A stretch of DNA of 64,000 nucleotides, from positions 1 to 64,000 of the forward strand of contig JAGRKZ010000034.1 in the NCBI GenBank assembly GCA_020442065.1, written 5' to 3'. The notes beneath the pieces are model-generated. The model had not been told where the DNA came from. It ran no database searches and saw nothing but the letters and a program-made list of their open reading frames with translations. How positions within the stretch are numbered: position 1 is the first letter of the stretch; each line of letters opens with the position of its first letter. Positions 39,979-64,000 of this stretch are shown here, piece by piece. The DNA comes from Bauldia sp. Lineage in GTDB: Bacteria; Pseudomonadota; Alphaproteobacteria; Rhizobiales; Kaistiaceae. The position numbers were made by a program, and so were the translations under genes.

Positions 39979-39982
<4 letters not shown>
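38864..39982 (+). CDS. Acyl-CoA-dehydrogenase-like flavoprotein, probably acting on a carrier-bound substrate
   Basis: 372 residues from ATG 38864, overlapping the TrpB-like gene by 14 bp. FAD-binding motifs are AFAATEAEAGSD and LTGAKTWISNATQAD. The Glu of the usual YEGT motif is replaced (YSGTSDLQ), but an ER pair on helix G is present (IIQERILLS, E235), the catalytic base position in isovaleryl- and long-chain acyl-CoA dehydrogenases. Free-standing flavoproteins of this family oxidise prolyl-carrier proteins in PltE/PigA pathways. The adjacent adenylation enzyme and carrier protein support that kind of reaction here. Confidence 0.83.
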
Positions 39983-41543
<1,561 letters not shown>

Positions 41544-41547
<4 letters not shown>

Positions 41548-43473: not shown

Positions 43474-44265
43474 ATGGCAAAATTCGTCGCGAAACAGCCA
43501 ACGAGTAATCTGTCCCTTCAAGGGATCGGAATTCTTGCAAATCCCGCGAATGTGAGCTTTTCGAACCGCGACAGCGACGGGTTCATCGCGCAGTCACAAA
43601 CCGTTCGGCTAGAGATCGGCGGAGAAGATTTCCGATATTTCGGCGGACGTCCCAAGGCTACAGGGACGATTACTGACATAAAATACTACGCATCAGGGAC
43701 GCTGTACTACAAGATAACAAAAATGCAGATAGACCTTCATGACATTGCCTCGACGAGCAATCTTGAGAAGGTCACGAATGATATTTTTTCGACGGATGAT
43801 ATTGTAAAGGGATCTTTTGGCAACGACACGCTGGCTGGCTTCAAGGGAAAAGACAGGATTGATGGCAAGGCAGGTGCCGATAATCTCCAGGGCGACGGCG
43901 GAAAGGACACGCTCATCGGCGGCGACGGCGCAGACATACTCAACGGCGGAAAGGGAAAGGACATCTACGTCTTCAAGTCGGCCAGCATCACTGGCGTCGA
44001 CACCATAACCAAGTTTCAAGACGGCGAGATACTCCAGTTCAAGAGCACCAAGTTCGACGGTCTGACCAAGGGCGCACTGTCGCCCGACCAGTTCGTCATT
44101 GGCACTGATGCCGCGGACGCGGACGACCGGTTCATCTACGACACCAATGCCGGTCGCCTCTATCACGACCCCGACGGGGTGGGCGGCGTGGCGAAGGCTT
44201 TGGTGGCGATCATGCAGCCAAAGCTCGACGATGTTCTCGGTGCCGACAGCATCTTCGTGATCTGA
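43474..44265 (+). CDS. RTX calcium-binding protein, type I secretion substrate-like
   Basis: 263 residues with AAGGCAAG before ATG 43474. An N-terminal domain of unknown function (1-110) is followed by nonapeptide repeats of the GGxGxDxLx type (GNDTLAG, GADNLQGDGGKDTLIGGD, GADILNGGKGKDIYVF; about 115-166). A C-terminal domain ends ADSIFVI, resembling the uncleaved secretion signal of RTX proteins. No catalytic motif is seen. Its first half uses AT-rich codons (AAA, ATA, AAT) unlike the surrounding genes, which suggests recent acquisition. No type I secretion genes are in the window. Confidence 0.85.
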   Translation: MAKFVAKQPTSNLSLQGIGILANPANVSFSNRDSDGFIAQSQTVRLEIGGEDFRYFGGRPKATGTITDIKYYASGTLYYKITKMQIDLHDIASTSNLEKVTNDIFSTDDIVKGSFGNDTLAGFKGKDRIDGKAGADNLQGDGGKDTLIGGDGADILNGGKGKDIYVFKSASITGVDTITKFQDGEILQFKSTKFDGLTKGALSPDQFVIGTDAADADDRFIYDTNAGRLYHDPDGVGGVAKALVAIMQPKLDDVLGADSIFVI

Positions 44266-44381
44266 CGATTTCGCTCCTGGCTCCCCGGGGACCTCGTAGT
44301 CACGCGCTCTTTGGCCAAAAGCCCGCCGCAGAGGCAAAAAACCAAGTGCCGTGCCGCACATCGCCTTGAAAGACGAGAAAT

Positions 44382-44399
44382 TCAGTATACTGTATTCCG
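44382..44399. promoter_or_regulatory. GTATAC operator of the diiron-oxygenase operon (site a)
   Basis: TCAGTATACTGTATTCCG contains the perfect palindrome CAGTATACTG. It lies in the spacer between a possible -35 TTGAAA (44366-44371) and -10 TGTATT (44391-44396), about 60 bp before the first gene. The identical 18 bases occur inverted at 51963-51980. A repressor bound here would block RNA polymerase. Confidence 0.6.
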
Positions 44400-44460
44400 G
44401 ACGAGCTGGCGCGAGGCGCTGGCCGTGTTGCGATCTGACCATGCGCCCGGAGCGACCACC

Positions 44461-45231
44461 ATGCCTCATGTGATGAATCCCGACGAATTCCGCACCGCCC
44501 TGGAAAACGCCATCAAAGGCAAGAGTGCAAACAAAGCTCCCTTCAGCATCGCCTGGGCGAGCGGAAAACTGAGCCGGGACCATCTCGCGCGCTGGGCCGA
44601 GAATCACTACCACTACGTCGGCCCATTTGCCGAATATCTTGCCTACATCTACGCCCGCATGCCAAACGAGTATGTGGAGGCCAAGGATTTCCTTCTGCAG
44701 AACATGTACGAGGAGGAAATTGGCGGTGATCGCCACACCGATCTGTTGATCCGCTTTGCCGAAGCCTGTGGCACCACTCGCGAGCGGGTCGAAGACCCCG
44801 AAAACATGACCGCGACCACCCGCGGCCTCCAGAGCTGGTGCTACACCGTTGCCATGCGGGAAGATCCGATCGTCGCCGTCGCCGGACTGGTGGTTGGCCT
44901 CGAATCCCAGGTTCCCTCGATATACCGTCGGCAGACCCCCACGCTTCGCGAGAAGTACGGCTTCACGGACGAGGAGGTCGAGTTCTTTGACCTGCACATC
45001 GTCTCGGACGAGATCCATGGCGAGCGTGGCTATCAGATCGTGCTCGAGCACGCCCGCACGGTCGAGATGCAGCAGCGCTGCCTCAAGATCTGCGAGATCG
45101 GAGCCCAGATGCGGCTGCTCTACACCACGGCGCTCTATCACGACTACGTCGCCAACGACATTCCGCTGGCGGAGCTGATGACGGTCGAGAAGAAGGTGCC
45201 GGCGGAAGAACGCGAGCTCCTGCAGGCTTGA
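44461..45231 (+). CDS. Heme-oxygenase-like diiron oxidase/oxygenase (TenA/PqqC/CADD fold)
   Basis: 256 residues, all helical. Six candidate metal ligands are present: E85 and H92 (EEEIGGDRH), E148 (GLES), H179, D183 and H186 (HIVSDEIH). The spacings 7, 56, 31, 4 and 3 nearly match those of Chlamydia CADD (E81, H88, E142, H174, D178, H181), and the H-x3-D-x2-H triad also appears in UndA and SznF. A diiron centre is therefore likely. Known members activate O2 to cleave or hydroxylate amines, acids or tyrosine. The next genes encode two ferredoxins, which could supply electrons. The substrate is unknown. ATG 44461 heads an operon behind operator site a. Confidence 0.82.
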   Translation: MPHVMNPDEFRTALENAIKGKSANKAPFSIAWASGKLSRDHLARWAENHYHYVGPFAEYLAYIYARMPNEYVEAKDFLLQNMYEEEIGGDRHTDLLIRFAEACGTTRERVEDPENMTATTRGLQSWCYTVAMREDPIVAVAGLVVGLESQVPSIYRRQTPTLREKYGFTDEEVEFFDLHIVSDEIHGERGYQIVLEHARTVEMQQRCLKICEIGAQMRLLYTTALYHDYVANDIPLAELMTVEKKVPAEERELLQA

Positions 45232-45234
45232 TCG

Positions 45235-45579
45235 GTGCCGATTGTCACCCTGCATAAGGGCGGCGAGGTTTTTCGCGACGAGGTGGCGGACAATTCCAAC
45301 CTCGTCGTGAGGGCCGGGATCCGAAAATTCCCCTACCCCAACTTCAAGTACAAGTGCGGGATGGGGAAGTGCGCCACCTGCACCAGCCTCATCATCTCGG
45401 GCGGAGAGCATCTGCCCGAGCCCAACTGGAAGGAGAAGAAGATCCTGGGAGATCGGCTGGCGAAGGGCTTCCGGCTCGCCTGCCAACTCTGGATCCATCA
45501 TGACATCGAGCTGACCCAGGAATTCGACGCCGAACGCGCCGGTCCGGCCAGCGACGCAGAAGCAACCGTTACGGGGTGA
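45235..45579 (+). CDS. Plant-type 2Fe-2S ferredoxin 1
   Basis: 114 residues from GTG 45235, 3 bp after the diiron-protein stop. Cluster ligands C41, C46, C49 and C83 give C-x4-C-x2-C-x33-C (KCGMGKCATC, RLACQ). The WIHHDIEL end and acidic tail are not part of the cluster fold. The gene's position makes it the first candidate electron donor to the diiron protein. Confidence 0.87.
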   Translation: MPIVTLHKGGEVFRDEVADNSNLVVRAGIRKFPYPNFKYKCGMGKCATCTSLIISGGEHLPEPNWKEKKILGDRLAKGFRLACQLWIHHDIELTQEFDAERAGPASDAEATVTG

Positions 45580-45584
45580 GGGAC

Positions 45585-45878
45585 ATGTATGTTGTACTGA
45601 CCACCAAACCGGGTGAGTTCCGCACGGAGATTACCCAGGGCCTGAAGCCGGTCGAGTCCTACGACTACGTCTTCTACGGCCGCAAGCGCGCCAGCTTCAC
45701 GATTGCCGAACTCGACGAAGCCATCAAGATCCGCATTGTCGAGGACGAAGAACCACACAGCGTCAACGACGTGCCGTCGAAGCTGTTCGAGAAGTTCGAC
45801 ACGCTTGACGAAGCCCGGGCCGAGCTTGAGACGCTCACCCACTACGGCACGATGGACATCAAATTGAGGAAGGTCTGA
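45585..45878 (+). CDS. Unknown 97-residue protein between two ferredoxin genes
   Basis: Read from ATG 45585, which has GAGGGA 4 bases upstream. A GTG at 45576 overlapping the ferredoxin stop would add three residues. Sequence features are a strand-rich first half (MYVVLTTKPGEFRTEI, YDYVFYGRKRASFTI) and an acidic, helical second half (VPSKLFEKFDTLDEARAELE). No cysteine pair, no membrane segment and no known motif. Its fixed place between the ferredoxin genes suggests a small subunit or adaptor of the oxygenase system. Confidence 0.75.
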   Translation: MYVVLTTKPGEFRTEITQGLKPVESYDYVFYGRKRASFTIAELDEAIKIRIVEDEEPHSVNDVPSKLFEKFDTLDEARAELETLTHYGTMDIKLRKV

Positions 45879-45908
45879 GGCCGCCCGGCACGGCCGCGGC
45901 AGCGCTCC

Positions 45909-46316
45909 ATGATCACAATCACCTTCATCACCAACGGCAACAAGGTCGTCTCGGCGGAGGAGAACAGCAATCTCCTGCGCGTCTCGCTGCGCCAGCAGGG
46001 CGGCATTCCGTTCAAATGCGGTGGCGGCATCTGCGGCACCTGCCGGTGCCTGATCGAGGCGGGGATCGAGAACACCGACAAGGTGAAGAACAAGGAGCGC
46101 AAACACCTCTCCGAGGCCGACCTCGCCGCCGGCTACCGCATGGCCTGCCAGACATTCGTGACCGGCGATGTGTCGGTCTCCTGGAAGGTACCGGAGAAGC
46201 CCGGCGCCTCCAGGGCGACAGCGGTCGCCCCTCCGTCGCCTTCGGAAAACGCCGTCGATCCCTCGGTCGAACCGACCGATGAACCGTCGCCCGAGGCGGC
46301 AACCGCCAGTTCCTGA
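45909..46316 (+). CDS. Plant-type 2Fe-2S ferredoxin 2 with a Pro/Ser-rich tail
   Basis: 135 residues. Ligands C37, C42, C45 and C80 (KCGGGICGTCRC, RMACQ), with an extra C47. After the fold (about 1-93) comes a 40-residue tail rich in Pro, Ser, Ala and Glu that ferredoxins usually lack and that may be a linker or docking segment. It differs from ferredoxin 1 by more than half of its residues, so the two are not a recent duplication. Confidence 0.87.
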   Translation: MITITFITNGNKVVSAEENSNLLRVSLRQQGGIPFKCGGGICGTCRCLIEAGIENTDKVKNKERKHLSEADLAAGYRMACQTFVTGDVSVSWKVPEKPGASRATAVAPPSPSENAVDPSVEPTDEPSPEAATASS

Positions 46317-46357
46317 CGTCCCGGACGCCAGCTCGGCGCCCTTACCCCGGAAAGACC

Positions 46358-47818
46358 ATGAGCGAAACCCACCACAACTATGTCGGCGGCGCCTGGAGCC
46401 CGGCGGCCGGCGGCGCCGTCTTCGAGGATCGCAACCCTGGCGACGAGCGTGACCTCATCGGCATCTTCCCCGATTCGGACGACGATGACGTGGCGGCGGC
46501 GGTCGCGGCCGTTTCCTCGGCGTGGCCGGCGTGGGCGGCAGGCTCGCCGGAAGCGCGGGCCGAGGTGCTGTTCAAGGCGGCCGACATCATGGCGCGAAGG
46601 GCAGACGAGATTGCGGCCGAGCTCACCCGCGAAGAAGGCAAGACCATCACCGAAGCGCGCAACGAGGCGCGGCGGATCGCTGCCAATTTCCGGCTCTACG
46701 CGGGCGAGGCGCTTCGTCTGAATGGCGAGAGCTACGCGACCGAAGCGAACCAGTTCGTATTCTCGCTTCGCCAGCCGGTCGGTGTCGTCGCCGTGATCAC
46801 GCCATGGAATTTCCCGTTGTCGATGGCGGCTCGCAAGATCGCCCCGGCGATTGCGGCCGGAAATGGTGTGGTGTTCAAGCCCTCCGAAGTGACCCCGCTC
46901 ATGGGGCAGCGGCTCGTCGAAGTGCTGCTCGAGGCAGGCCTGCCGGCCAACCTGATCGCCCTTGTTCACGGTCGCGGCGCCACCGTCGGGCAGGCAATCA
47001 CGCGCCACCGCGGCATTGACGCGCTGACCTTCACCGGGTCGTTCGCGGTCGGTCGCGAGATCGCCAGGTCGGTATCGACCGACACGCGCGTCCAGCTCGA
47101 AATGGGTGGCAAGAACGCAACCGTCGTGCTCGATGATGCGGATCTCGACAAGGCGGCCGCGATCATCCAGCGTGGCGCCTTCGGTCTCACCGGGCAGGCC
47201 TGCACGGGCACCAGCCGCGTGCTCGTCGCCCGCCCACTCTACGACGCTCTGCTCGATCGGCTCACGGCCGCGGCCGGAAAATTCAAGGTGGGCCCCGGCG
47301 GCGAGGAAGGCGTTCAGATGGGGCCGGTTGCGACCCGCGCGCAATACGACAAGATACTCTCCTATGTCGACATCGCGCGCGACGAAGGGGCCCGGGTCGC
47401 CGTCGGCGGCGAGGCGCTTCGCGACACGCGCGATGCCCGGTTCCACCACGGCTATTTCCTGACGCCTGCTGTCATCGCCGACGTCCCTGCCGAGAGCCGA
47501 CTGCTCCGCGAGGAGATCTTCGGCCCGGTGGTCGCGCTCCGTGCCTTCGATGGCCTCGACGAGGCGCTCGCGATCGCCGACGAGACCGAGTACGGGCTCG
47601 CGGTGTCGCTTGTCACCAATCATCTCCCATCGGTGATCCGCTTCGCCCGGGAAACCCGCCACGGCGTCGTCAAGGTCAACAGCCCGACCACCGGCGTGTC
47701 CCTCAATGCTCCCTTCGGCGGCTTCAAGCACTCGAGCAACCAGGCGGCGAAGGAGCAGGGCGGGGCAACGGTGATGGACTTCTACACGCGCATCAAGACC
47801 ATCTATCTCGGCGCCTGA
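46358..47818 (+). CDS. NAD(P)-dependent aldehyde dehydrogenase
   Basis: 486 residues. Catalytic residues are N151 (TPWNFP), E248 (LEMGGKN) and C282 (GQACTG). Its overall sequence is nearest to 2,5-dioxopentanoate (alpha-ketoglutaric semialdehyde) and related dehydrogenases with GQACTGTSR. It would oxidise an aldehyde made by the oxygenase or by amine removal. Part of the same operon, 41 bp after ferredoxin 2. ATG 46358 is preceded by GGAAAG. Confidence 0.9.
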   Translation: MSETHHNYVGGAWSPAAGGAVFEDRNPGDERDLIGIFPDSDDDDVAAAVAAVSSAWPAWAAGSPEARAEVLFKAADIMARRADEIAAELTREEGKTITEARNEARRIAANFRLYAGEALRLNGESYATEANQFVFSLRQPVGVVAVITPWNFPLSMAARKIAPAIAAGNGVVFKPSEVTPLMGQRLVEVLLEAGLPANLIALVHGRGATVGQAITRHRGIDALTFTGSFAVGREIARSVSTDTRVQLEMGGKNATVVLDDADLDKAAAIIQRGAFGLTGQACTGTSRVLVARPLYDALLDRLTAAAGKFKVGPGGEEGVQMGPVATRAQYDKILSYVDIARDEGARVAVGGEALRDTRDARFHHGYFLTPAVIADVPAESRLLREEIFGPVVALRAFDGLDEALAIADETEYGLAVSLVTNHLPSVIRFARETRHGVVKVNSPTTGVSLNAPFGGFKHSSNQAAKEQGGATVMDFYTRIKTIYLGA

Positions 47819-47819
47819 C

Positions 47820-48578
47820 GTGCTGCCCGACTTCGCCACCATCCTCCCGCAAGGCTTGCTCTCGCAGCATTTTGCCGGCATGGCGGCAGTCGTCTTCAGC
47901 GCAGCCCTGACGCAGGGAATCGGCGGGATCGGGTTTGCCATGGTCTCGGCGCCGATCTCGGTGCTGGTGTTTCCCGAGCTGGTGCCCGGTCCGCTCCTCG
48001 TTCTCGGCACTGCCCTCGCGCTCCTCGGCGCGGTGCGCGATTTCCGCGACATCAACTGGCGGTCGTTCGGCATCATCATGGGTGGACGGATCGTCGGAAC
48101 CATCGCGGGGGCGGTGATCATCACGCTCCTCTCGGCGACCCTGTTCTCCGTCGTCCTCGCCTCGCTCATCCTCGTCGGCGTCGTGCTGAGCATCTCCGGC
48201 TGGAAGGTCGATGCCAACCCTCCCAATCTCGTCGCGGCCGGCGCCGCTTCCGGAATCATGGGAACGATTACGTCCTCGGGCGCTGCGCCCTATGCGATCG
48301 TCATGCAGCGGGTCGCGCCAGCCGAGCTCCGCGGAACGATGGGGAGCGTGTTCTTCGCCGGCGGCTTCTTCTCGCTCGCGATGCTCGCGGTCGTCGGTCA
48401 TTTCGACCGCAACCAGTTCTGGCTCGGCTTCATCCTTTTTCCGTTCATGATCCTGGGCTTCGCGATCTCGACGCCGCTGACGCGGTTCTTCTCGCGCGAG
48501 GTGATGCGCCACTTCCTTCTCGGCCTGGCCGCGGCGGGGTCGATCGGCATTCTCATCCGCGCCGCTCTGATGGGCTGA
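47820..48578 (+). CDS. TSUP-family (TauE/SafE) membrane transporter
   Basis: 252 residues from GTG 47820, one base after the aldehyde dehydrogenase stop. About seven or eight hydrophobic helices. The N-terminal repeat GIGGIGFAMVSAPI and second repeat GIMGTITSSGAAPYAI are typical of the family. TSUP proteins export small organic or sulfur anions such as sulfite or sulfoacetate. Coupling to the catabolic operon suggests removal of an acidic end product or uptake of the substrate. Confidence 0.88.
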   Translation: MLPDFATILPQGLLSQHFAGMAAVVFSAALTQGIGGIGFAMVSAPISVLVFPELVPGPLLVLGTALALLGAVRDFRDINWRSFGIIMGGRIVGTIAGAVIITLLSATLFSVVLASLILVGVVLSISGWKVDANPPNLVAAGAASGIMGTITSSGAAPYAIVMQRVAPAELRGTMGSVFFAGGFFSLAMLAVVGHFDRNQFWLGFILFPFMILGFAISTPLTRFFSREVMRHFLLGLAAAGSIGILIRAALMG

Positions 48579-48597
48579 ACGATCGGGACGGACTCCG

Positions 48598-49512
48598 ATG
48601 CTCCACATCACTGACAGAATGATTGATGACCTCGTCGGGCCGGCCGCGGTCGAGGAGGCGCTCGTCGCTGCGTTCAGGGCGTTCGACCGCGGCGAGGCGG
48701 GAATACAGGAGCGGGTGCGGACCTACGCGGGCGGCGTTCGTCTCTCCACCCTCGGTGCGCTGCTTCCCGAGCAGGAATTCGCCGGGGCCAAGGTCTACAC
48801 CACCATCGGCGGCGCGTTCTCGTTCGCCATCGTTCTGTTCTCGAGCCGTAGCGGCGAGCTGCTCGCAATCCTCGACGCCAATGCCATCACCCGGCTGCGT
48901 ACCGCCGCCTGCTCCGTGATCGCGGCGCGATACCTCGCCCGGTCCAGTGCCAAGCGACTAGCGATCTTCGGGCTCGGCGTTCAGGGCCGCGAACACGCAA
49001 AGCAGTTTGCTGAGGCCTTCCGACTTGAGGAAATCCTGCTGTGCTCGCAACGCCGCGACCCGGCCATCGCTGTCGAGATCACCAACGCGACAAAGGTTCC
49101 CGCGCGCCTCGCCACTACCGAGGAGGCGCTTGCGTCGGCCGATATGATTGTCACCGCGTCTCGATCCAAGACGCCGCTGTTTGCGGGTGATGCCATCCGT
49201 GCCGGGACCTTCATCGCCGCGGTCGGCTCCAGCCTTCCGACGTCACGGGAGCTCGACGACACCGCCCTCGTCCGGGCCAGCACGATCGCCATTGAATGGC
49301 GCGAGCAGAGCCTGAAGGAAGCGGGGGAACTGGTCCAGGCGGGAGCAGGCGTGGTCGACCCCGCAAAGATCGTGGAGCTGGGGGAGCTGATCTCCGGCAG
49401 AAAGACCGGCCGAACCGACGACCAATCGATCACGGTCTACAAGTCCGTCGGAGTCGGACTGGAAGACATTGCCATCGCCGGGCTCGCCTGGCGGCGCGCC
49501 GTCGCTGGCTGA
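48598..49512 (+). CDS. Ornithine cyclodeaminase / mu-crystallin family protein
   Basis: 304 residues. The NAD(P)-binding motif is FGLGVQGREHAKQF (about 123-136). The substrate side has RVRTYAGGVRLSTLGALLP and AKVYTTIGGAF in the place of the usual K-x5-N/P loop. Family activities include ornithine cyclodeaminase, alanine dehydrogenase and ketimine reductase. A reductase for an imine produced upstream in this pathway would suit the context. Last gene of the operon, convergent with gntR. Confidence 0.87.
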   Translation: MLHITDRMIDDLVGPAAVEEALVAAFRAFDRGEAGIQERVRTYAGGVRLSTLGALLPEQEFAGAKVYTTIGGAFSFAIVLFSSRSGELLAILDANAITRLRTAACSVIAARYLARSSAKRLAIFGLGVQGREHAKQFAEAFRLEEILLCSQRRDPAIAVEITNATKVPARLATTEEALASADMIVTASRSKTPLFAGDAIRAGTFIAAVGSSLPTSRELDDTALVRASTIAIEWREQSLKEAGELVQAGAGVVDPAKIVELGELISGRKTGRTDDQSITVYKSVGVGLEDIAIAGLAWRRAVAG

Positions 49513-49529
49513 TGCACCTACGCCCGGAT

Positions 49530-50174
49530 CTAGACTTCCTGCTGCATCTGCGCAGCGTTGTAGACGTGGCGAGCAGCGAGGAGCGCCGCGAGTTCCCCGT
49601 CCCCTTCGATCACGGCCCTTAGGATTGCGGCGTGTTCCTGCCAGTTCTGGCGTGCACGCGGCACGCCATGGGGCGCGAACAGCATCGCCGTTCGGTCGCG
49701 GAGCGATCCGATGATGTCCTGAAGCACCGTGTTGCCGGCAACCCGGCCGAGCGCCTCGTGGAAGCGGAAATTCTGACGCACGACGGCGGCGGGATTGTCC
49801 TCCGCCATCAGACGCGCCCCCTCGTCAAGGATGGCCTGGAGCTCGGCGATCTGCTTGGGATCGTGGCGCCGGGCGGCGAGCTTGGCGTTGAGAGATTCCA
49901 GCGTGGCGCGCACCTCGATCATCTCGCGCTTCTGCTCGTCGCTGTAGGTGGTGACCGAAGCGCCGCGCCGCGGCTCGATGGTGACGATTCCCTCGGCTGC
50001 CAACTCCCGCAGTGCCTCGCGGACGGGCATGCGCGATACCCCGAGTTCCTCGGACAGGCGGCCTTCGACCAGCCTTTCTCCCAAGGGGATCTCGCCATTG
50101 AGGATGCGTTCACGGAGAGCTGCCGTCACAAGTTTCGTGAGCGGCTCATGCGAGGACCCAATCGGGATGTTCAT
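49530..50174 (-). CDS. GntR-family regulator with FCD domain
   Basis: 214 residues. A winged helix (ILNGEIPLGERLVEGRLSEE, then RMPVREALRELAAEGI) and a C-terminal all-helical FCD ligand domain (FRFHEALGRVAGN with metal-binding Asp/His pattern). It lies between the two halves of the island. GTATAC-centred operators are common for this subfamily, so it is the leading candidate to bind the repeated motif. It may share a transcript with the reductase and GlcG-like genes upstream. Confidence 0.9.
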   Translation of the reverse strand: MNIPIGSSHEPLTKLVTAALRERILNGEIPLGERLVEGRLSEELGVSRMPVREALRELAAEGIVTIEPRRGASVTTYSDEQKREMIEVRATLESLNAKLAARRHDPKQIAELQAILDEGARLMAEDNPAAVVRQNFRFHEALGRVAGNTVLQDIIGSLRDRTAMLFAPHGVPRARQNWQEHAAILRAVIEGDGELAALLAARHVYNAAQMQQEV

Positions 50175-50243
50175 CGCCCTTCACCGGAGTTGCCGAGTCG
50201 CCACCCACCGGAAGGCGGGCATGAGTCGGACTACGCCAAAACT

Positions 50244-50263
50244 GAATACCGAATACAGAATAC
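50244..50263. promoter_or_regulatory. Triple GAATAC repeat upstream of gntR (site c)
   Basis: GAATAC occurs three times at 7-bp steps (50244, 50251, 50258). The right part, GAATACAGAATACGAC, differs from site b (GAATACAGTATACTGAC) by one substitution and one missing base. It lies 70 bp before the gntR start, as expected for autoregulation. The rest of the 200-bp gap shows nothing else. Confidence 0.5.
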
Positions 50264-50372
50264 GACCGCAATCGGGCGGGGCGTCGCACCTTCTGAAGTC
50301 GATTCCGGCTAGTTCCAAGCGTTCATGCGGCCCGTTGCGCCTGCCCGCGATCCCACGGATGACCGGCGTCGA

Positions 50373-51374
50373 TCAACGATTATGCTGAAACAGGAAGCTG
50401 TCGGCGTAGATGTGATTGAGGCTCGCCCCGCGTTCGATGAAAAGTGCCTTGGCTGACCCGACCATGACCGGCGACCCGCATAGGTAGATGGAATACTCGG
50501 AAAGGTCGTCGATCTCGGCCACCACCGCGTCCTGGACATAGCCACGACGTCCCTCCCAGCCGGGGGGTGGACGGCTCAATACCGGCCTGTATTCGAACTC
50601 CGGCAGGCGGCTACTCCAGCCGGCGATCTCGTCGTGAAGATAGAGATCGCCAGGCCCGCGAGCCCCCCAGTAGAGGAAGGACGGCGGACAATCGGGATCC
50701 TCCATCAACGATTCGAGGACGCTCTTGATCGGCGCCAGTCCGGTACCGGTGGCGACCATGAGCAGCGGCCGGAAGTCATCCTTTCGCAGGAAGAAGGACC
50801 CGAGCGGCAATTCAACGTCCAGCGTATCCCCTTCCGCCAGCGACGGCAGTTGCACATCGGTGAAGGCGCCGCCGGGGATTCTTCGGATGTGCAGGTCAAA
50901 GCGATTGCCGGTCGGTGCCGAGGCCATCGAGAAGCTCCGGGGCCGGCCATCGCCCATGAGCACCTGGATGTGCTGTCCGGGCAGGAAGTCGAAGCGGTCG
51001 AGATCGGGCAGCTCGAGTGTAAGGCGGGTAACATCGTCCGCGAGCGGCTCGATCCCGCTGACGACCGCCGCGCGCCTCGCTGGTGGTTGCGCGAGGGCGG
51101 GCCGTACCTCGGCCTCGATTACAAGGTCGGTTCGGGCCCGGGCCTGACAGGCCAGCGCGAAGCCGGCGCCCGCCTCCTCGGGGAGGAGGCCCATCGGCTC
51201 CTCCAGATAGGCCACCTCCCCGCTCACCAACCGCACGCGGCAGGTCGCGCAGGTACCAGACTTGCAGTCATGGGCGAGGTTGATGTTGGCGGCAAGTGCC
51301 GCCGCGAGCACGGATTCCTCTTCGCCGACGACAAACGTTTCGCCAGTTTCGGCAATCGTGACGTTATGGCGCAA
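50373..51374 (-). CDS. Ferredoxin-fused FAD/NAD(P)H oxidoreductase
   Basis: 333 residues. An N-terminal 2Fe-2S domain has C37, C42, C45 and C76. The FAD-binding motif is RSFSMAS and the NAD(P) domain has VATGTGLAPIKSVLE and YLCGSPVMV. This is the layout of oxygenase reductases and CDP-6-deoxyglucoseen reductase (E3). It can pass electrons from NAD(P)H to ferredoxins, so it is the natural reductase for the diiron system encoded 5 kb away. Located 52 bp after the GlcG-like gene. Confidence 0.9.
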   Translation of the reverse strand: MRHNVTIAETGETFVVGEEESVLAAALAANINLAHDCKSGTCATCRVRLVSGEVAYLEEPMGLLPEEAGAGFALACQARARTDLVIEAEVRPALAQPPARRAAVVSGIEPLADDVTRLTLELPDLDRFDFLPGQHIQVLMGDGRPRSFSMASAPTGNRFDLHIRRIPGGAFTDVQLPSLAEGDTLDVELPLGSFFLRKDDFRPLLMVATGTGLAPIKSVLESLMEDPDCPPSFLYWGARGPGDLYLHDEIAGWSSRLPEFEYRPVLSRPPPGWEGRRGYVQDAVVAEIDDLSEYSIYLCGSPVMVGSAKALFIERGASLNHIYADSFLFQHNR

Positions 51375-51426
51375 GGCGCGTGCCCGGTCGCGATGACAGT
51401 TGCCCGGCCAAGCCCGTGCTCCGCCC

Positions 51427-51906
51427 CTACTTCTTGATGTCGGCGGCGACCGTTACCGTCAGGCCTTCGCCGGCAATCATGTCCCGGAGCGCCTCGAGGG
51501 CGGCCAGGCCGCAGGCAGTGTCCTGCTCACCATTGCCGCCCGAGAGCCCGACAGCGCCGATGACCTCGCCGTCGACGACGATCGGGAATCCGCCGACGAA
51601 CACTGCGAACCGCCCTTCGAAGCTGAGCTGAATGCCGAATGCCTCGTTGCCGGGCAATGCCGGCCCGTTCGGCGGCGCGTTGAACAGATGGGTCGAGCGC
51701 TTGTGGCCCGCGGCAGTGAAGGCCTTGTTCCATGCGATCTGCGGCCCGGTGATCCGGGCGCCGTCCATCCGCTCCAGAACGATCGGGAAGCCGCCGTCGT
51801 CGACGACGCAGACGGTCTGCGGTACCCCCAAGTCCGACGCCCGGCGAACCGCCGCATTGACCATCACTCGCGCCTCCGCGCGCTCCAGCTTCCACTTCTG
51901 CTTCAA
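51427..51906 (-). CDS. GlcG/HbpS-like heme-binding-fold protein
   Basis: 159 residues from TTG 51906, preceded by AAGGGGCAGGG. GTG 51936 or 51942 are alternatives. The GlcG core is recognised by VCVVDDGGFPIVLERMDGAR, a GFPIVVDGEVIGAVGLSGGN segment and the C-terminal AALEALRDM helix. Relatives bind heme or cobalamin or act as accessory proteins in diol and aromatic pathways; the function here is unknown. It is divergent from the gamma-glutamyltransferase gene, with operator site b between. Confidence 0.8.
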   Translation of the reverse strand: MKQKWKLERAEARVMVNAAVRRASDLGVPQTVCVVDDGGFPIVLERMDGARITGPQIAWNKAFTAAGHKRSTHLFNAPPNGPALPGNEAFGIQLSFEGRFAVFVGGFPIVVDGEVIGAVGLSGGNGEQDTACGLAALEALRDMIAGEGLTVTVAADIKK

Positions 51907-51962
51907 GACCCTGCCCCTTCCCGATGCTTCCTTCACGTCCACGGCAATGCGTTGCCCAGACA

Positions 51963-51980
51963 CGGAATACAGTATACTGA
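51963..51980. promoter_or_regulatory. GTATAC operator between GlcG-like and gamma-glutamyltransferase genes (site b)
   Basis: CGGAATACAGTATACTGA is the exact reverse complement of site a. Its position in a divergent gap lets one regulator control both directions. TATACT within it could also serve as a -10 for the plus strand, with TTGCCC 15 bp upstream. Confidence 0.65.
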
Positions 51981-52083
51981 CTTTCCCCCGGAGTGGAAGG
52001 ACAGCGCCCGGCACGGAGTGCCGTGAGTGCCATGGACCACAGTGCCACCGGCCCACGGGCAGCGGGCAAGCCGAGGTAGGACA

Positions 52084-53556
52084 ATGGCGGAGATTGAACC
52101 GATTCCCGACGGCGGGCGCGTGGGACAACACTGCATGGTCGCAACCGGTCATCCGGTCGCGGCAAAGGAAGCGCTGGCCGTTCTTGATCGCGGCGGCTCC
52201 GCCGTCGATGCGGCAATTGCCGCGGATGCGATCCTTGGTGTCGTCGAGCCGATGGCGACCGGTATCGGCGGCGACCTCCTCGCCATGATCGTGGAGCCGA
52301 ATGGCAGCGCGGTCACCTACAACGGCACCGGCCGAGCGCCACTCGGACTGAGCCCCGACATGGTCGATGCCCTCCCCGGCCGTCGCATCCCCGACCGTCA
52401 TTCGCTATCGGTGACGACGCCGGGGGTGATTCGCGGCTGGTTCGATCTTCATGGCCGCTATGGCCGCATCGCCATGGCAGACCTTCTGGCGCCGGCGATC
52501 CGCCTCGCCGCCGAGGGCTTCGCGGTCGGCCCGATCGCGGCCCGTGAGTGGAAATTCTTCGATTCGCTCATCGCCGGGGATGCGGCCTGTGCCGCGCTCT
52601 ATCGCGCCGGCAATCCGCCGGCAGCGGGTGAAGCCTTCGCCAACGCCGAACTTGCAGCGGTCCTCGACGCGGTTGCCCATGACGGTCCCGCGGCGTTCTA
52701 CGAAGGCGCGCCGGCCGCGGCCGCGGCCCGGGCGAGCCGAGCCTCGGGCGGAGTGCTTTCCGAGCATGATTTTGCAGCCCATCGCGGCAATTTCGACAGC
52801 CCCCTCTCCACCGGGTTCCGGGGACTTTCGGTCCTCGAATGCCCGCCGAACACTCACGGCCGCGCGGCGCTCGACGCCCTCGGTGCGCTCGAGCCGCTGG
52901 CACTCGATCCCGAAGACCCGCAGACCATGGTCGCAGCGGTCGAGGCGATGCGCGACGGCATGATCAAGGCCAGGCAGACCGTCGCCGATCCGGCCGGCAA
53001 CACGGTCTGCACGGCGATGGTCGACCGTGACGGCCTTGGGATCACGCTCATGAGCAGCGTATTCAAGCGGTTCGGTGCCGCGATCGGTGTGCCCGGCGCC
53101 GGCTTCGTCCTGCAGAACCGCGGCTCCGGCTTCGCCGAGCCAGGCCATGTCAACGGGCCGGCTCCGGGGAAACGTGCCTACCATACGGTCATCCCGGCCG
53201 CCGCTCTCAAGGATGGGCGGCTCCATGCTGTGTTCGGCGTGGTCGGCGGCGCCATGCAGCCGCAGGGTCACGTCCAGCTGATGATGCGCATTGCTGCCTG
53301 GGGCGAGCCGCTGCAAGCCGCGCTCGATGCGCCGCGCTGGCGTCTCGAAGGCGACGATCTGCTGGCGATCGAGGACGGCATGGCGCCGGATGTCGTCGCA
53401 GCCCTTCGCGGCGCCGGGTTCGCCGACACTCATGGCCTCGGCAATATCGCCGGGCGAAGCGACTTTGGAGGCGCTCAGGTCGTCATTCGGGCGGATGATG
53501 GCACCCTCCGCGGCGCTTCCGACAAGCGGAAGGACGGCACCGCGCTCGGCCGCTGA
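52084..53556 (+). CDS. Gamma-glutamyltransferase-family Ntn hydrolase, divergent
   Basis: 490 residues from ATG 52084 behind GAGGTAGGA. The large-subunit region has GGSAVDAAIAAD and EPMATGIGGD. The self-cleavage site normally reads TTHxxVxD. Here it is TVCTAMVDRDG with T307 at the nucleophile position, so Thr is kept but the following Thr-His is Val-Cys. A GSGF...GKRAYHT substrate region follows. No signal peptide is present, whereas many family members are periplasmic. It may cleave a gamma-glutamyl or other amide bond in an imported compound. Convergent with the peptide importer genes. Confidence 0.85.
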   Translation: MAEIEPIPDGGRVGQHCMVATGHPVAAKEALAVLDRGGSAVDAAIAADAILGVVEPMATGIGGDLLAMIVEPNGSAVTYNGTGRAPLGLSPDMVDALPGRRIPDRHSLSVTTPGVIRGWFDLHGRYGRIAMADLLAPAIRLAAEGFAVGPIAAREWKFFDSLIAGDAACAALYRAGNPPAAGEAFANAELAAVLDAVAHDGPAAFYEGAPAAAAARASRASGGVLSEHDFAAHRGNFDSPLSTGFRGLSVLECPPNTHGRAALDALGALEPLALDPEDPQTMVAAVEAMRDGMIKARQTVADPAGNTVCTAMVDRDGLGITLMSSVFKRFGAAIGVPGAGFVLQNRGSGFAEPGHVNGPAPGKRAYHTVIPAAALKDGRLHAVFGVVGGAMQPQGHVQLMMRIAAWGEPLQAALDAPRWRLEGDDLLAIEDGMAPDVVAALRGAGFADTHGLGNIAGRSDFGGAQVVIRADDGTLRGASDKRKDGTALGR

Positions 53557-53562
53557 GCCGCC

Positions 53563-54575
53563 TCAGCGGTGCCAGCAGGCGGCCCAGTGACCGGGCCGCT
53601 TCTCGACCAGCGGCGGCGGCTCGATAGAGCACTTCTCCGTTGCATGGGGGCAGCGGCCGTGCAGGTGGCAGCCTGAGGGCCAATGGCCGGCGTCGACGAT
53701 CTCGCCGCGATAGACCAGCCGCTTCCGACCCTTCTGGATCTTCGGATCCGGGACCGGCACAGCCGAGAGCAGTGCCTCGGTATAGGGATGGATGGGCGTG
53801 TCGTAGAGCGCCTCACGTTCAGCGATCTCGACAAGCCGTCCGCTGTAGAGGATGGCCACCCGATGCGAGATGTGCCGCACGACGCTGAGATCGTGCGCGA
53901 TGAAGAGCAGCGTCAAGCCAAGGTCGCGCTGAAGATCCTGAAGCAGGTTGACGACTTGCGCCCGTACCGAGACATCGAGGGCGGACACCGGCTCGTCGGC
54001 AACAATGAAGTCGGGCTTGAGCGCGAGGGCGCGAGCAATGCCAATGCGCTGGCGCTGCCCCCCCGAGAAAGCGTGGGGAAAGCGATCTTGCGCATCGCGC
54101 GGCAACCCCACGATCCGGAGCAGTTCGCTGATCTCCTCACGAGCCTCCTCGGCGCTTGCGACGAGGCCATGGACGATCAGCGGCTCGGCGACGGTATCGA
54201 GCACGCTCATCCGGGGATTGAGACTCGCATACGGATCCTGGAAGACGATCTGCATGTGGCGGCGAAGCTGCCGGAGTTCTTCGCCCGTCACCGTGGTAAT
54301 GTCGCGGCCCTTGAACAGAATCCGGCCTGACGTCACGCCGATACGGCGGAGAATCGCGCGCCCGGTGGTTGACTTGCCTGAGCCTGACTCTCCGACCAGC
54401 CCGAGAGTCTCGCCAGGGAATATATCGAAGGAGATGCCGTCGAGAGCCTTGACCGGAGACGCGTGCGCCCAGAACCCGCTCCGCCCTCCGTCATAACTGA
54501 CCGAGATATTCTGCACGCTGAGAATCGGCCCCGTTGCAGCTGCCGTCTCGTCGGGCGGTAGCGTCATTGGTGCGC

Positions 54576-54579
<4 letters not shown>
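53563..54579 (-). CDS. Dipeptide/oligopeptide ABC transporter ATP-binding protein (DppF-like)
   Basis: 338 residues from ATG 54579, overlapping the DppD-like stop (ATGA). Walker [10 protein letters not shown], signature [15 protein letters not shown] and Walker [13 protein letters not shown] are present. A C-terminal cysteine-rich end ([14 protein letters not shown]) is usual for OppD/F. With its partner it powers uptake by the membrane subunits encoded upstream. Confidence 0.92.
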
Positions 54580-55606
<1,027 letters not shown>

Positions 55607-55610
<4 letters not shown>

Positions 55611-56584
55611 GGCGTCTCCCGGCCGACACCGGCCCGGCGCTCCTGCCGGCGCCGCGTTGCCGCCCGTGCCCTCGCGAACCGCTTCTCACGCTCCTGGGGA
55701 TCGGTCGTGACCCGAAGCCAATTGGCGAAGAGATTGATCGAGAGAACCGTGACAGAGATGCAGAGGCCGGGGAACGTGACCAGCCACCATGCGACGAAGA
55801 TGTAGTCCTTGCCGGTCGAGACATCGAGGCCCCAGCTCGTCGCCGGTGGCTGCACGCCGAGCCCGAGGAAGGACAGCGCCGCTTCCGCCAGCACGATGTT
55901 GGTGAACTCGAGGATGCCCAGAGTGAGGAGGGGCGACGTGAGATTGGGAAGGATGTGGCGGAAGATGACGCGCGATTGCTGGCAACCGATCATCTCGGCG
56001 GCCTCGACATAGGGCATCTGGCGAACAGAAAGCACGATGCCCCGGACGACGCGCGCGTAGATCATCCAGTTGGTGAGGGCGAGGACCACGATCATCGTCA
56101 CCATGCTGGGACCGATGACGGCCACGATGAGCAGAATGAGGAGGAGACCCGGAAAGGCGACCTGGATGTCGACAAGACGCATCAGAATCGTGTCGGTGCG
56201 CCCGCCGCGAAAGCCGGCGAGGAGACCGATGGTCCCACCGAACGTACCGGCGAGGGCGACGACCAGGATGCCGACGATCAGCGACGTGCGCGCCCCGTAG
56301 ATCAGTCGCGAGAGGATGTCGCGGCCCAGTTGATCGGTGCCGAGTAGATGGGCCCAGTCGCCCTTCGCCATCCACACCGGCGGTTTGAGGCGGCCCACGA
56401 CTGCCTGCGTGGCGGGATCGTATGGTGCGATCAACGGCGCCAGGATCGCCGCGAGCACGATGGTGACGATCAGCACGAAACCGATCAACCCGGGCTTGTC
56501 CTTCCAAAGCTCCTCGGCGAGGGCACGCATCGGTCCCGGCTCGCGCGGAGTGGCAGCGGCAACAGGTGGATCGATGACGGCCAT
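55607..56584 (-). CDS. Dipeptide/oligopeptide ABC transporter permease (DppC-like)
   Basis: 325 residues with about six membrane helices. The N-terminal LGTDQLGRDILSRLIYGAR and the EAA loop (YVEAAEMIGCQQSRVIFRH) are typical. The C-terminus carries an extra 40 basic residues (ERRAGVGRETP) after the last helix. It pairs with the DppB-like subunit 2 bp upstream. Confidence 0.92.
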
Positions 56585-56586
56585 CT

Positions 56587-57507
56587 TCAGGCGAGCTTGA
56601 TGCGCGGATCGATGAATTTGTAGATCACGTCCAGGAGTATGTTCACCAGGACGATCGCGATTGCCACCGTGAACACGATGGCCTGGAGCAGGAAGAGGTC
56701 ATTGCGCTGAATCGCCTGGATGGCCGTGTGACCGAGCCCGGGCCAAGCAAAGACGCTCTCGACGACGACGGTATAGCCGGCAAGGGCGCTGATGACCTCC
56801 CATCCTGCGAGCGTGATGAACGGGATCATGACGTTGCGGAGCGCGTGACCGAACAGCACTTGATGGAAACGAAGGCCCTTGGCCCGAGCCGTCTTCACGT
56901 ACTGCTGGTTGAGCTCGTCGATCACCTGCGAGCGGACGAGCAGCACCATCCGCGCCATGCTCGGCAACGCCAGGGTCAAGGCCGGCAGAATCAGATGTGA
57001 CACGCCGCCTATGCCGGACGTCGGCAGAATCCTGAGCTGGACTGCGAACAGCATGATCAGGAGCAGCCCAAGCCAGAACTGAGGTGTCGACAGGCCGACG
57101 AGGCCACCGATCACCGTGACGCGGTCAATGATGCCACCGGGGCGCAGCGCCGCAAGAGCACCCAGCGGCAGCGCCATGATCATAGCAAAGCCAAGCCCCG
57201 CCCCCACCAGCATCAGCGTGTTGGGAAGACGCTCGAAGACCACCTCCATCGCCGGCCGGCGCTGCCAGAGGCTGTCCCCGAAGTCGAGCGTCGCGAGTTC
57301 GCCGATAAAGGTAACGAACTGCTCCGGCAGGGGCCGGTCGAGACCGATAAGGTGCTCGAACTCGGCCCGCTGCTCGGTCGTGGCGGAAAGGGGCAGCATG
57401 ACCTTGGCAGGATCGCCGAACACGCGCATGGCGACGAACACGACCAGGGACACTCCGAGAACGACCAGGAATCCCTGACCGAGCCTGCGCAGAATGAAGC
57501 GGCCCAT
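56587..57507 (-). CDS. Dipeptide/oligopeptide ABC transporter permease (DppB-like)
   Basis: 306 residues starting MGRFILRRLGQGFLVVLGVS, the standard DppB opening. Six helices and the EAA loop (YVKTARAKGLRFHQVLFGHAL) are seen. It forms the other half of the translocation pore. Confidence 0.92.
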   Translation of the reverse strand: MGRFILRRLGQGFLVVLGVSLVVFVAMRVFGDPAKVMLPLSATTEQRAEFEHLIGLDRPLPEQFVTFIGELATLDFGDSLWQRRPAMEVVFERLPNTLMLVGAGLGFAMIMALPLGALAALRPGGIIDRVTVIGGLVGLSTPQFWLGLLLIMLFAVQLRILPTSGIGGVSHLILPALTLALPSMARMVLLVRSQVIDELNQQYVKTARAKGLRFHQVLFGHALRNVMIPFITLAGWEVISALAGYTVVVESVFAWPGLGHTAIQAIQRNDLFLLQAIVFTVAIAIVLVNILLDVIYKFIDPRIKLA

Positions 57508-57544
57508 GCTGCTCCCTATGGTTCCGGTCCAGGCGGACCGGCGC

Positions 57545-59032
57545 CTACTCCGTCACCTTCATTTCCTTGACGATCAGCTTGGCGTCGACGCGCGGCTGCC
57601 ATTCCACCCGCTCGGAGATGCCGTAGATGTCCTGAACGTTCAGGAGCGGCGCGAGGTAATTATCGTCAAAGGCCTTCTGGGTGATTGCGTCGTAGAGGGC
57701 CTTGCGCTTGGCGACGTCCGTTTCGATCCGCGCCGCCTGCGCCTTCGCCTGCATGTCCATGTCCTTGTTGGACGCGAAGCCGCTACCCGACTCGTAGCCC
57801 GACGAGATCGGACGATCGGCATCCAGCAACTCGTCCGAGTTGACCACGAAGATCGCGTCCGGACGGTTCTCCTTGTCGAACAGGAGGGTCAGGTACTGGC
57901 CGAACTCCTCGATCTGGTAGTTGACGTTGAGGCCCGCCTCCGACCAGTACTGGCCGACTGCCTCGATCAGCTCGCGGTCCTTCAGCCAGCGGCCCGACTC
58001 GCCGACGAGGTTGATGGTCTTACCCTCGGCGCCGGCCTCTTTGATCAGCGCTTTGGCCTGCTCCGGATCATAGGGATAGACCGACAGCGCTTCGTTGAAG
58101 CCGAAGGCCTTCGGGTTCACAAGCTGACCGCGAGCCGGCAGCGCGTAGCCACCGAACAGACTGTCGGCCAGCGCCTGGCGGTCGATCGCGATGTTCAGTG
58201 CCTTGCGGACGCGCGGGTCCTTGGTCACCTCATTCTCGGTAGATAGGATAATTACCGACGTCTCGAGGCCCTGGACGGTCGCCGATTTCGGTACGCTGTC
58301 CACGAACTCGGGCAGGAGGTTGGTGATGACGTCGAACTCGCCCGCGACAAGGCCGGAGAGGCGCGTTCCGGATTCGCCCACGAACCGGTACGTGACCTTG
58401 TCGATGTCAGGCTTGCCGCCCCTGTAGTTCGGATTGGCGACGATGACGATGTCCTGGCCGCGGTTGAACGCTTCAAGCATGTAAGGACCGGTGCCGACCG
58501 GCGCCTCTGCGAATTTCGGATCTGAGGCGTATTTCGGTGGAACCATCTTCATCCAATACATGCGCGACGGCAGGATGGGGTCAGGCCCGGTGGTAATGAT
58601 GCGCACCGTGAGGTCATCGACCTTTTCGGCTCCCTTGAGCGTGCCGAAGTAGGACATCTGCTCGGACTTGAGGTCCGGATTGATGATCCGCTCGACGCTG
58701 GCTACCACCGCGTCGGCATTGAAGGGCTCGCCGTTGGTGAAGGCGATGTCGGGCCGCAGCTTGAATTCCCAGGTCGTGTCGTCGACCTTGGTCGGCGCTT
58801 CCGCCGCCAGCCCCGGAACCAGCGCGCCGTCGGGCGTGCGGGCCATCAGGGTCTCGTAGATATTGTCATTCACGGCGCGCTCACCACCATCGTCGCGCGC
58901 CTGCGGATCGAGCGTCGACGGCTCCGATCCAATCGCGATGACGATATCTCCGGCGGCGAAAGCAGTCATTGGCAACGCGGCACCGGTCATCAACACCGCG
59001 CCGGTCAGCAGGCCTGTCAGCAATTTCATCAT
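57545..59032 (-). CDS. Peptide-type ABC transporter substrate-binding protein (DppA-like)
   Basis: 495 residues. A signal peptide (MMKLLTGLLTGAVLMTGAAL, cleavage after AFA) precedes a family 5 binding protein with IGSEPSTLDPQARDD and the GTGPYMLEAFNRGQ region. It sets substrate specificity; family members bind peptides, opines, nickel chelates or other amides. First gene of a five-gene operon. Regulon-type motifs lie 111-119 bp upstream. Confidence 0.92.
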   Translation of the reverse strand: MMKLLTGLLTGAVLMTGAALPMTAFAAGDIVIAIGSEPSTLDPQARDDGGERAVNDNIYETLMARTPDGALVPGLAAEAPTKVDDTTWEFKLRPDIAFTNGEPFNADAVVASVERIINPDLKSEQMSYFGTLKGAEKVDDLTVRIITTGPDPILPSRMYWMKMVPPKYASDPKFAEAPVGTGPYMLEAFNRGQDIVIVANPNYRGGKPDIDKVTYRFVGESGTRLSGLVAGEFDVITNLLPEFVDSVPKSATVQGLETSVIILSTENEVTKDPRVRKALNIAIDRQALADSLFGGYALPARGQLVNPKAFGFNEALSVYPYDPEQAKALIKEAGAEGKTINLVGESGRWLKDRELIEAVGQYWSEAGLNVNYQIEEFGQYLTLLFDKENRPDAIFVVNSDELLDADRPISSGYESGSGFASNKDMDMQAKAQAARIETDVAKRKALYDAITQKAFDDNYLAPLLNVQDIYGISERVEWQPRVDAKLIVKEMKVTE

Positions 59033-63817: not shown

Positions 63818-63855
63818 GGTATACTATCCGTGTCAATAAAGGCGGTATACTGACA
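63818..63855. promoter_or_regulatory. Paired GTATAC motifs in a divergent promoter (sites e1 and e2)
   Basis: GGTATACT (63818-63825) lies between TTGACA (rc of 63831-63836) and a CAAATA-like -10 of the monooxygenase promoter. GGTATACTGACA (63844-63855) faces the SDR gene, 36 bp before its start. Two sites 25 bp apart would suit cooperative binding by one regulator controlling both genes. Confidence 0.6.
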
Positions 63856-63890
63856 ATTGGATGCCCGGCAGTGGAGCGAAGGGGACTCTC

Positions 63891-64000
63891 GTGATCGACG
63901 AACTGAAACGCGTGGTAGTTATCACCGGCGCAGCGAGCGGCATCGGCGCCGCGCTGGCGAGGACGATTGCGGCACCCGGAACCGGGCTGCTCCTCCACAC
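63891..64000 (+). CDS. SDR-family dehydrogenase (partial, runs off the right end)
   Basis: GTG 63891 with AAGGGGA 9 bases upstream. The 36 visible residues (MIDELKRVVVITGAASGIG...) hold the classical SDR cofactor motif TGAASGIG. It is divergent from the FAD monooxygenase gene and shares its control region, so both probably act in one pathway. Confidence 0.85.
   Translation, partial: MIDELKRVVVITGAASGIGAALARTIAAPGTGLLLH

Follow-up and report, generated by a model that had tools for sequence, protein, structure and literature searches.

A heme-oxygenase-like dimetal oxygenase linked with two ferredoxins and an uncatalogued small protein in a conserved gene cluster of Bauldia and other Proteobacteria

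Little is known of how the heme-oxygenase-like dimetal oxygenases (HDOs) regain their electrons in the cell, and the locus described here raises the question of whether nature has packaged one of them together with its own electron supply. About a dozen HDOs have been validated according to a 2026 review, and nearly all of them are biosynthetic (PMC13108848); MboA of mangotoxin biosynthesis, reported in April 2026, needs its own reductase MboB, and the two are possibly the first dedicated pair of an HDO and a redox partner (PMC13185094). The locus lies in Bauldia sp. (genome of 5.36 Mb) on contig JAGRKZ010000034.1, of which positions 1-64,000, 64,000 nucleotides in all, are the stretch that we analysed and are called the window below. 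Herein a single operon on the plus strand (44461-49512) encodes an HDO, a ferredoxin (FdA), a 97-residue protein (SMALL), a second ferredoxin (FdB), an aldehyde dehydrogenase (ALDH), a TSUP-family transporter and an ornithine cyclodeaminase family enzyme (OCD) with gaps of 1-41 bp between the genes, and it is followed on the minus strand by the genes of a GntR regulator, a reductase (RED) and an HbpS/DUF336 protein, as follows.

44377..44399, no strand: operator-like palindrome before the diiron operon (repeat and pattern scans)
44461..45231, plus strand: HDO, heme-oxygenase-like dimetal oxygenase by prediction, 256 aa (PF14518, 126 bits; six ligands; structural alignment of the model)
45235..45579, plus strand: FdA, plant-type [2Fe-2S] ferredoxin, 114 aa, GTG start, C41 C46 C49 C83 (PF00111; motif)
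45585..45878, plus strand: SMALL, 97 aa, uncatalogued family, mixed beta fold in the model (conservation; co-occurrence with HDO)
45909..46316, plus strand: FdB, plant-type [2Fe-2S] ferredoxin, 135 aa, Pro/Ala-rich tail (PF00111, 48.7 bits; motif)
46358..47818, plus strand: ALDH, NAD(P)-dependent aldehyde dehydrogenase, 486 aa, catalytic Cys282 (PF00171, 502 bits)
47820..48578, plus strand: TSUP (TauE/SafE) family membrane transporter, 252 aa (PF01925)
48598..49512, plus strand: OCD, ornithine cyclodeaminase / mu-crystallin family, imine-reductase-like, 304 aa (PF02423)
49530..50174, minus strand: GntR (FCD type) regulator, proposed repressor of the cluster (NCBIfam GntR-family matches, below cut-off)
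50373..51374, minus strand: RED, Fer2 + FAD + NAD(P)H reductase of BenC/GcoB type (PF00111, PF00970, PF00175)
51427..51906, minus strand: HbpS/DUF336 protein, 159 aa, TTG start inferred from comparison with a Caballeronia homologue (PF03928, 110 bits)
51963..51985, no strand: second operator copy, between the HbpS/RED operon and a divergent GGT-like gene (repeat and pattern scans)

The original prediction, which proposed from this DNA a possible new diiron oxygenase system, had the gene order of the plus-strand operon right, strands included, as well as the ferredoxin-fused flavin reductase on the other strand; its gene list was accurate as far as it went, and it missed the HbpS/DUF336 and GntR genes, the operator pair, the GGT-like gene and an Opp transporter.

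As to the oxygenase itself, the open reading frame (ORF) begins with a TTG at 44311, which belongs to an upstream leader, while the start is the ATG at 44461 that is retained by homologues. The protein far exceeds the gathering score of PF14518 (Haem_oxygenas_2; 126 against 28.9 bits), and the predicted ligands E85, H92, E148, H179, D183 and H186 form the E-H-X-H-D-H set, are exact at all six positions and are invariant across 36 aligned orthologues; their spacing, said to be close to that of CADD, indeed aligns with the six ligands of CADD position by position without a gap. The AlphaFold model has a seven-helix heme-oxygenase-like fold (mean pLDDT 79) and can be superposed over about 210-227 residues with PqqC (Z 22.5), CADD (Z 22.1), UndA (Z 20.1) and HrmI (Z 19.1), and the closest solved sequences are CADD (about 70 bits) and NePabS (about 62 bits), with PqqC at 48 bits. 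Judged from its sequence and model, this protein is a member of the HDO superfamily and is predicted to bind a dinuclear metal and to activate O2.

The two ferredoxins and SMALL are encoded directly behind it. Both ferredoxins carry the C-x4-C-x2-C-xn-C motif, which is kept in 51/51 and 34/34 homologues, and they are 35% identical with each other. SMALL is a genuine conserved protein (52 aligned sequences, mean column identity 52-53%), for which no credible match was found in Pfam with any of the 52 members, nor in NCBIfam with the protein of the window, nor in the PDB by a profile search, and none was found in viral contigs. Its predicted model is confident (pLDDT 91), and a fold search of the PDB gave no convincing match, the best Foldseek E being 0.22 and the best VIA Z 3.8; the VIA-align matches, namely ICAM domains and geminivirus Rep with Z <4, were taken as noise. 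RED consists of Fer2 (PF00111), FAD_binding_6 (PF00970) and NAD_binding_1 (PF00175) domains, an architecture of the MboB/BenC type, and among solved structures it comes nearest to 5ogx, a P450 reductase, and to 1krh, the reductase of benzoate dioxygenase.

Whether these genes belong together can be judged from their conservation. A scan of genome contigs revealed 486 related stretches, and the HDO of the best 76 loci shows 82-92% identity; the orthologues span Alpha- and Betaproteobacteria, namely soil and freshwater bacteria of many families, and the hosts of the best 76 include Bradyrhizobium, Devosia, Kaistia, Aminobacter, Acetobacteraceae, Mangrovicoccus, Cupriavidus, Variovorax, Achromobacter and others. 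Genes in the loci (numbered with L below) were called with a codon-likelihood caller seeded with the core matches, which missed some small genes, and hence the counts given here are from direct sequence matches in the 58 loci whose length is 20 kb or above. HDO, FdA, SMALL and FdB occur together in 57 of them, each one being present in 57-58, followed by HbpS in 55, GntR in 49, ALDH in 45, a 512-aa permease in 37, RED in 28, TSUP in 25, OCD in 21 and GGT in 9. L052, the sole locus lacking the ferredoxin-SMALL trio, represents an additional HDO copy on NZ_JANKZL010000011.1, the contig on which L033 has the full set. Under a strict test the FdA, SMALL and FdB genes adjoin one another in this order in 68 of 79 loci, where the other 11 seem to be due to ORF calls that run too far or to contig ends, and the three remain together even where the HDO gene is divergent from them. 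The linkage of the four is thus far beyond chance, and the conserved core is HDO-FdA-SMALL-FdB with HbpS/DUF336 and GntR (and ALDH), while TSUP, OCD and RED are often absent. Of the genes diiron-Fd-small-Fd-ALDH, whose order the original prediction had proposed to check for conservation, the first four thus occur together in 57/58 loci and ALDH in 45/58; the reductase called dedicated is co-clustered here and found in only 28/58 loci.

Moreover, presence and absence agree at the genome level. In Bradyrhizobium, HDO is found in 11/117 genomes and SMALL in exactly those 11, and in Achromobacter both occur in the identical 42/43 genomes; among 385 evenly sampled Alphaproteobacteria, SMALL occurs only in the window's own genome, and 12 others have distant HDOs (about 77-207 bits) but no SMALL. 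A plasmid collection yielded orthologues only from Cupriavidus and Caballeronia. Such a patchy spread across classes is as expected of a catabolic module. The mean pairwise identity of HDO is 87%, the highest of the four, and 55-71% for the other three; when loci are compared in pairs, the divergence of HDO correlates with that of FdA (r 0.78), a figure which includes shared ancestry.

Some loci depart from the usual arrangement. Paired HDO genes about 4-10 kb apart are seen in L043 (1972-2754 and 10001-10729, 92% identical), L028, L034, L041 and L045, where one copy goes with the ferredoxin-SMALL set and the other, where mapped, with HbpS, and operator-like sites lie before each of the two copies in L043 and in L045; the second copy is possibly a second subunit or an isozyme. 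In L082 (8769-9560 and 7932-8762, minus strand), a distant HDO is followed directly by HbpS and GntR genes and runs divergently from the gene of a Rieske-domain protein, without the ferredoxin trio, which suggests that HDO-HbpS-GntR is the older unit and that FdA-SMALL-FdB were added later.

The cluster is further marked by a palindrome. The sequence AAATTCAGTATACTGTATTC at 44377-44399, about 62 bp before HDO, agrees with the palindrome GAATACAGTATACTGTATTC at 18/20 positions, and the copy between HbpS and GGT at 17/20; in the whole 5.36-Mb genome these two are the only sites with at most 3 mismatches from the 20-mer, and both are at the cluster. In addition, a 15/20 repeat lies before GntR, whose promoter holds operator-like GAATAC repeats at 50244-50263, and a half-operator CAGTATAC is found at 59144-59151, upstream of the Opp operon. 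The related loci contain 149 sites of at least 14/20, against 14 in shuffled sequence. In both classes these sites are concentrated ahead of the HDO, FdA, permease, ALDH and GGT genes, and most loci have one before HDO. The recurring palindrome therefore supports one dedicated regulon, and the linkage of the genes suggests that GntR would be the regulator acting through it. A third CAGTATACTG site in the same genome (C49) was set aside, as it lies in an ordinary region with no related genes.

How far, then, does this cluster differ from known systems? The original prediction had named UndA, SznF, BesC and CADD as well-studied members with no ferredoxin pair of their own encoded nearby; that HDOs in general lack a dedicated partner fails for MboA with its MboB (PMC13185094), and what is new here is the separate ferredoxins together with SMALL. 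MboA shares with the present protein the HDO fold, the 3-His/3-carboxylate ligands and a co-encoded NAD(P)H-flavin-Fe2S2 reductase of the RED architecture, such a NAD(P)H/FAD/[2Fe-2S] reductase being provided by RED in 28/58 loci, and the catalysis of our HDO may depend on such a partner. However, MboA is biosynthetic, acts on a tripeptide and is served by a reductase only, with no separate ferredoxins or SMALL described. In the present cluster, by contrast, it is the reductase that can be missing, and the pair of ferredoxins and SMALL are nearly invariant. The principle of a dedicated partner is thus common to both; what is new is the separate ferredoxin pair, the uncatalogued fourth protein and the catabolic-looking context. 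UndA, BesC, SznF, HrmI and other HDOs share the fold and the ligand pattern (structural Z 17-20 for UndA, BesC and HrmI), but they are biosynthetic and of very low sequence similarity, and no conserved ferredoxin pair was found for them in the literature searched. On the other hand, three-component oxygenases of the Rieske and soluble methane monooxygenase types are built on the same plan, with a reductase, a ferredoxin, an oxygenase and a small accessory protein, but the oxygenase here is an HDO, neither Rieske nor ferritin-like, and SMALL could not be related to them by sequence, nor did its structural search give a convincing match. Neither an HDO with separate ferredoxins and a fourth protein nor a publication describing this gene set was found in the open-licence literature, so that a prior mention elsewhere is possible; and no homologue turned out to be a characterised TenA or PQQ enzyme with the same gene set, the case that the original prediction had named as speaking against it.

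Taken together, these features point to the following scheme. Electrons from NAD(P)H would pass through RED (FAD, then [2Fe-2S]) or a housekeeping reductase to FdB/FdA and on to the dimetal site of HDO, whose two-electron reduction would prime O2 activation and allow multiple turnovers, and SMALL would be an obligatory accessory that assists docking or gating, most likely as an effector or as a subunit on which ferredoxin and oxygenase dock. The substrate is probably a small nitrogen-containing compound, which the Opp-type importer here and the 512-aa permease in other strains would take up, and which a hydrolase would release from an amide or ester, the GGT-like acylase here and an esterase or amidase elsewhere. 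The product would include an aldehyde, because ALDH is found in 45/58 and DUF336 in 55/58 loci and the DUF336 family occurs in pathways with toxic aldehydes, its member EfgA binding formaldehyde (PMC8153426); ALDH could then oxidise this aldehyde to a carboxylate, the DUF336 protein could sense or buffer it, and the OCD-family enzyme might handle an imine or amino acid. GntR would repress the set via the palindrome until a pathway compound relieves the repression.

That the HDO is fed by ferredoxin seems to us quite probable; the scheme as a whole, i.e. a NAD(P)H-driven four-component HDO in a catabolic pathway whose hydrolase-released substrate is oxidised via an aldehyde, we favour with some reserve, and the oxidative cleavage to an aldehyde as such we hold to be rather less likely than not. 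The broader claim comes slightly short of an even chance in our judgement: an undescribed four-component class of O2 activation, in which an HDO works with two non-interchangeable ferredoxins and with SMALL as obligatory coupling subunit of an uncatalogued family and possibly fold, in a soil catabolic pathway that is widespread (near-universal in Achromobacter) and directed to an abundant unrecognised substrate. Several points weigh against the four-component scheme. Nearly half of the loci, or about that share, have no RED, so that a housekeeping reductase must serve there; the HDO model is of moderate confidence (pLDDT 79), lowest around residues 81-90 and 151-190, which hold the ligands, so that their convergence on one site is predicted from homology to CADD; and the ferredoxins could serve another enzyme. 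Likewise, the 'complete' pathway of the original prediction is a putative one, the hydrolases and transporters varying between loci.

A different role for the ferredoxins deserves to be weighed as an explanation in its own right: together with SMALL they would be partners of some other oxygenase or of a housekeeping enzyme, and the HDO would do without them by a chemical type of reduction, as other HDOs do in vitro. The word ferredoxin is absent from the 2026 review (PMC13108848), and the distant HDO of L082 adjoins a Rieske protein and goes with HbpS and GntR without the trio; but no other oxygenase is conserved in the loci as HDO, FdA, SMALL and FdB are, the exact agreement of HDO and SMALL in Bradyrhizobium and Achromobacter speaks for a common role, as does the divergence correlation of HDO and FdA with its share of common ancestry, and we regard separate roles as improbable. 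Another view keeps the system and changes the chemistry: as N-oxygenation ranks among the principal reactions of HDOs (PMC13108848), the enzyme might hydroxylate an amine or guanidine like SznF or HrmI, with the pathway degrading or detoxifying the resulting hydroxylamine, oxime or nitro compound. The OCD-family enzyme suits amino-acid or imine chemistry and HrmI aligns with the model, though no closer than other HDOs such as CADD and UndA, while ALDH and the DUF336 protein indicate an aldehyde rather than an N-oxide, which leaves an N-oxygenase unlikely, if somewhat less so than separate roles.

A biosynthetic cluster, making a small metabolite or cofactor, is what most known HDOs would lead one to expect (PMC13108848), and a cluster of adenylation, acyl-CoA-dehydrogenase and phosphopantetheinyl transferase genes indeed lies upstream in the window at 38.8-43.0 kb. 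That cluster, however, is not conserved with HDO, and uptake and breakdown are what importers, a GntR operator, ALDH and a changing choice of hydrolases typically go with, as is consistent with a set near-universal in Achromobacter and rare in the sampled Alphaproteobacteria, so we would not expect a biosynthetic role either. Least of all is the enzyme of the CADD or PqqC kind, to which we give almost no credence in spite of the same fold, six identical ligands with similar spacing and the sequence similarities given above. The self-sacrificing p-aminobenzoate synthases CADD and NePabS depend on Tyr27/Lys152 and on the equivalent Tyr25/Lys159, respectively (PMC11965152), and in our HDO Ser29 and Gln158 align with Tyr27 and Lys152 of CADD, so that both sacrificial residues are missing and the p-aminobenzoate role is already contradicted; 'CADD-like' thus stands for fold and ligands, not for the sacrificial pair. 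The NCBIfam models of CADD (TIGR04305, 100 bits against a cut-off of 200) and of the PqqC equivalog (TIGR02111, 55.9 against 240) are not reached, and genes for folate, PQQ or thiamin were not among the conserved neighbours seen in the related loci, whose HDO genes go instead with dedicated electron-transfer genes. The p-aminobenzoate and PQQ roles were rejected on these residues, cut-offs and gene contexts. Two candidate pathways were also dropped: homarine (N-methylpicolinate) breakdown, suggested by a homABCDER operon, is unlikely because HDO occurs in only 2/295 genomes of the Mangrovicoccus family, where a roseobacter homarine pathway would be expected; and sulfonate desulfonation, prompted by TSUP, was set aside as TSUP is found in only 25/58 loci.

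The four-component scheme, if true, would extend the HDOs from natural-product chemistry to bulk soil catabolism. The cluster offers a naturally packaged HDO that seems to be driven by ferredoxin and comes with a fourth component yet to be explained, and since culturable hosts such as Achromobacter, Cupriavidus, Bradyrhizobium and Variovorax possess it, its electron supply, accessory protein and substrate are directly testable.

The accessory genes vary more than the core. The nearest NCBIfam models of ALDH are those of 2,5-dioxovalerate / alpha-ketoglutaric semialdehyde dehydrogenase (492 bits, below the cut-off of 750), and the nearest solved structure of OCD is 3hdj (317 bits), whose function is not known. 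Beyond HbpS, the window continues as follows.

52084..53556, plus strand: GGT-like Ntn-hydrolase / acylase (PF01019, 346 bits)
53563..59032, minus strand: Opp/Dpp-type ABC importer with two ATPases, two permeases and an SBP_bac_5 binding protein (Pfam)
63861..64000, plus strand: start of an SDR gene (63861-64652, extending past the window; orthologues near the GGT gene in other loci)

The GGT-like protein does not reach the GGT equivalog TIGR00066 (252 bits, cut-off 358) and is closer to cephalosporin-acylase-like proteins, its nearest solved relative being the 'cephalosporin acylase' 2nlz. Opp genes beside GGT/HDO are found also in L033, L041, L045, L051 and L053, and the same five loci have SDR orthologues near the GGT gene. 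As for hydrolases elsewhere, L003 has one of the alpha/beta type, L043 a carboxylesterase, and L032, L066 and L077 an amidase each. The 512-aa multi-spanning permease (L004 7049-9301, minus strand, and homologues) has no credible Pfam match, is often preceded by an operator and possibly represents an unrecognised transporter family. In the Acetobacteraceae loci L049, L058, L060, L063 and L071 the cluster adjoins the genes of two further proteins. One is a fused molybdenum hydroxylase of about 900 aa; the other has 471 aa and a Cys-rich N-terminus and may be a dearomatising reductase. These neighbours hint at an N-heterocyclic substrate.

Elsewhere in the window, genes of acyl-CoA-dehydrogenase-like, AMP-binding ligase, esterase-like and phosphopantetheinyl-transferase-like proteins stand in a row at 38816-43033, a possible small carrier-protein pathway that does not accompany the HDO cluster in other loci, and an RTX-repeat protein comes next (43474-44265). 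Between the Opp operon and an FAD monooxygenase gene (62537-63784, minus strand) lie the genes of a MarR-like regulator (59491-60066, minus strand), also near HDO in L008, and of a Beta-lactamase-fold protein (PF00144; 61282-62430, minus strand). The closest solved structures of the FAD monooxygenase are the flavin monooxygenases 2rgj/3c96 (PhzS; 292 bits); an orthologue lies about 0.4 kb from HDO in L008 (Devosia), and two GTATAC sites, at 63819 and 63845, sit between its gene and that of the SDR, upstream of the latter.

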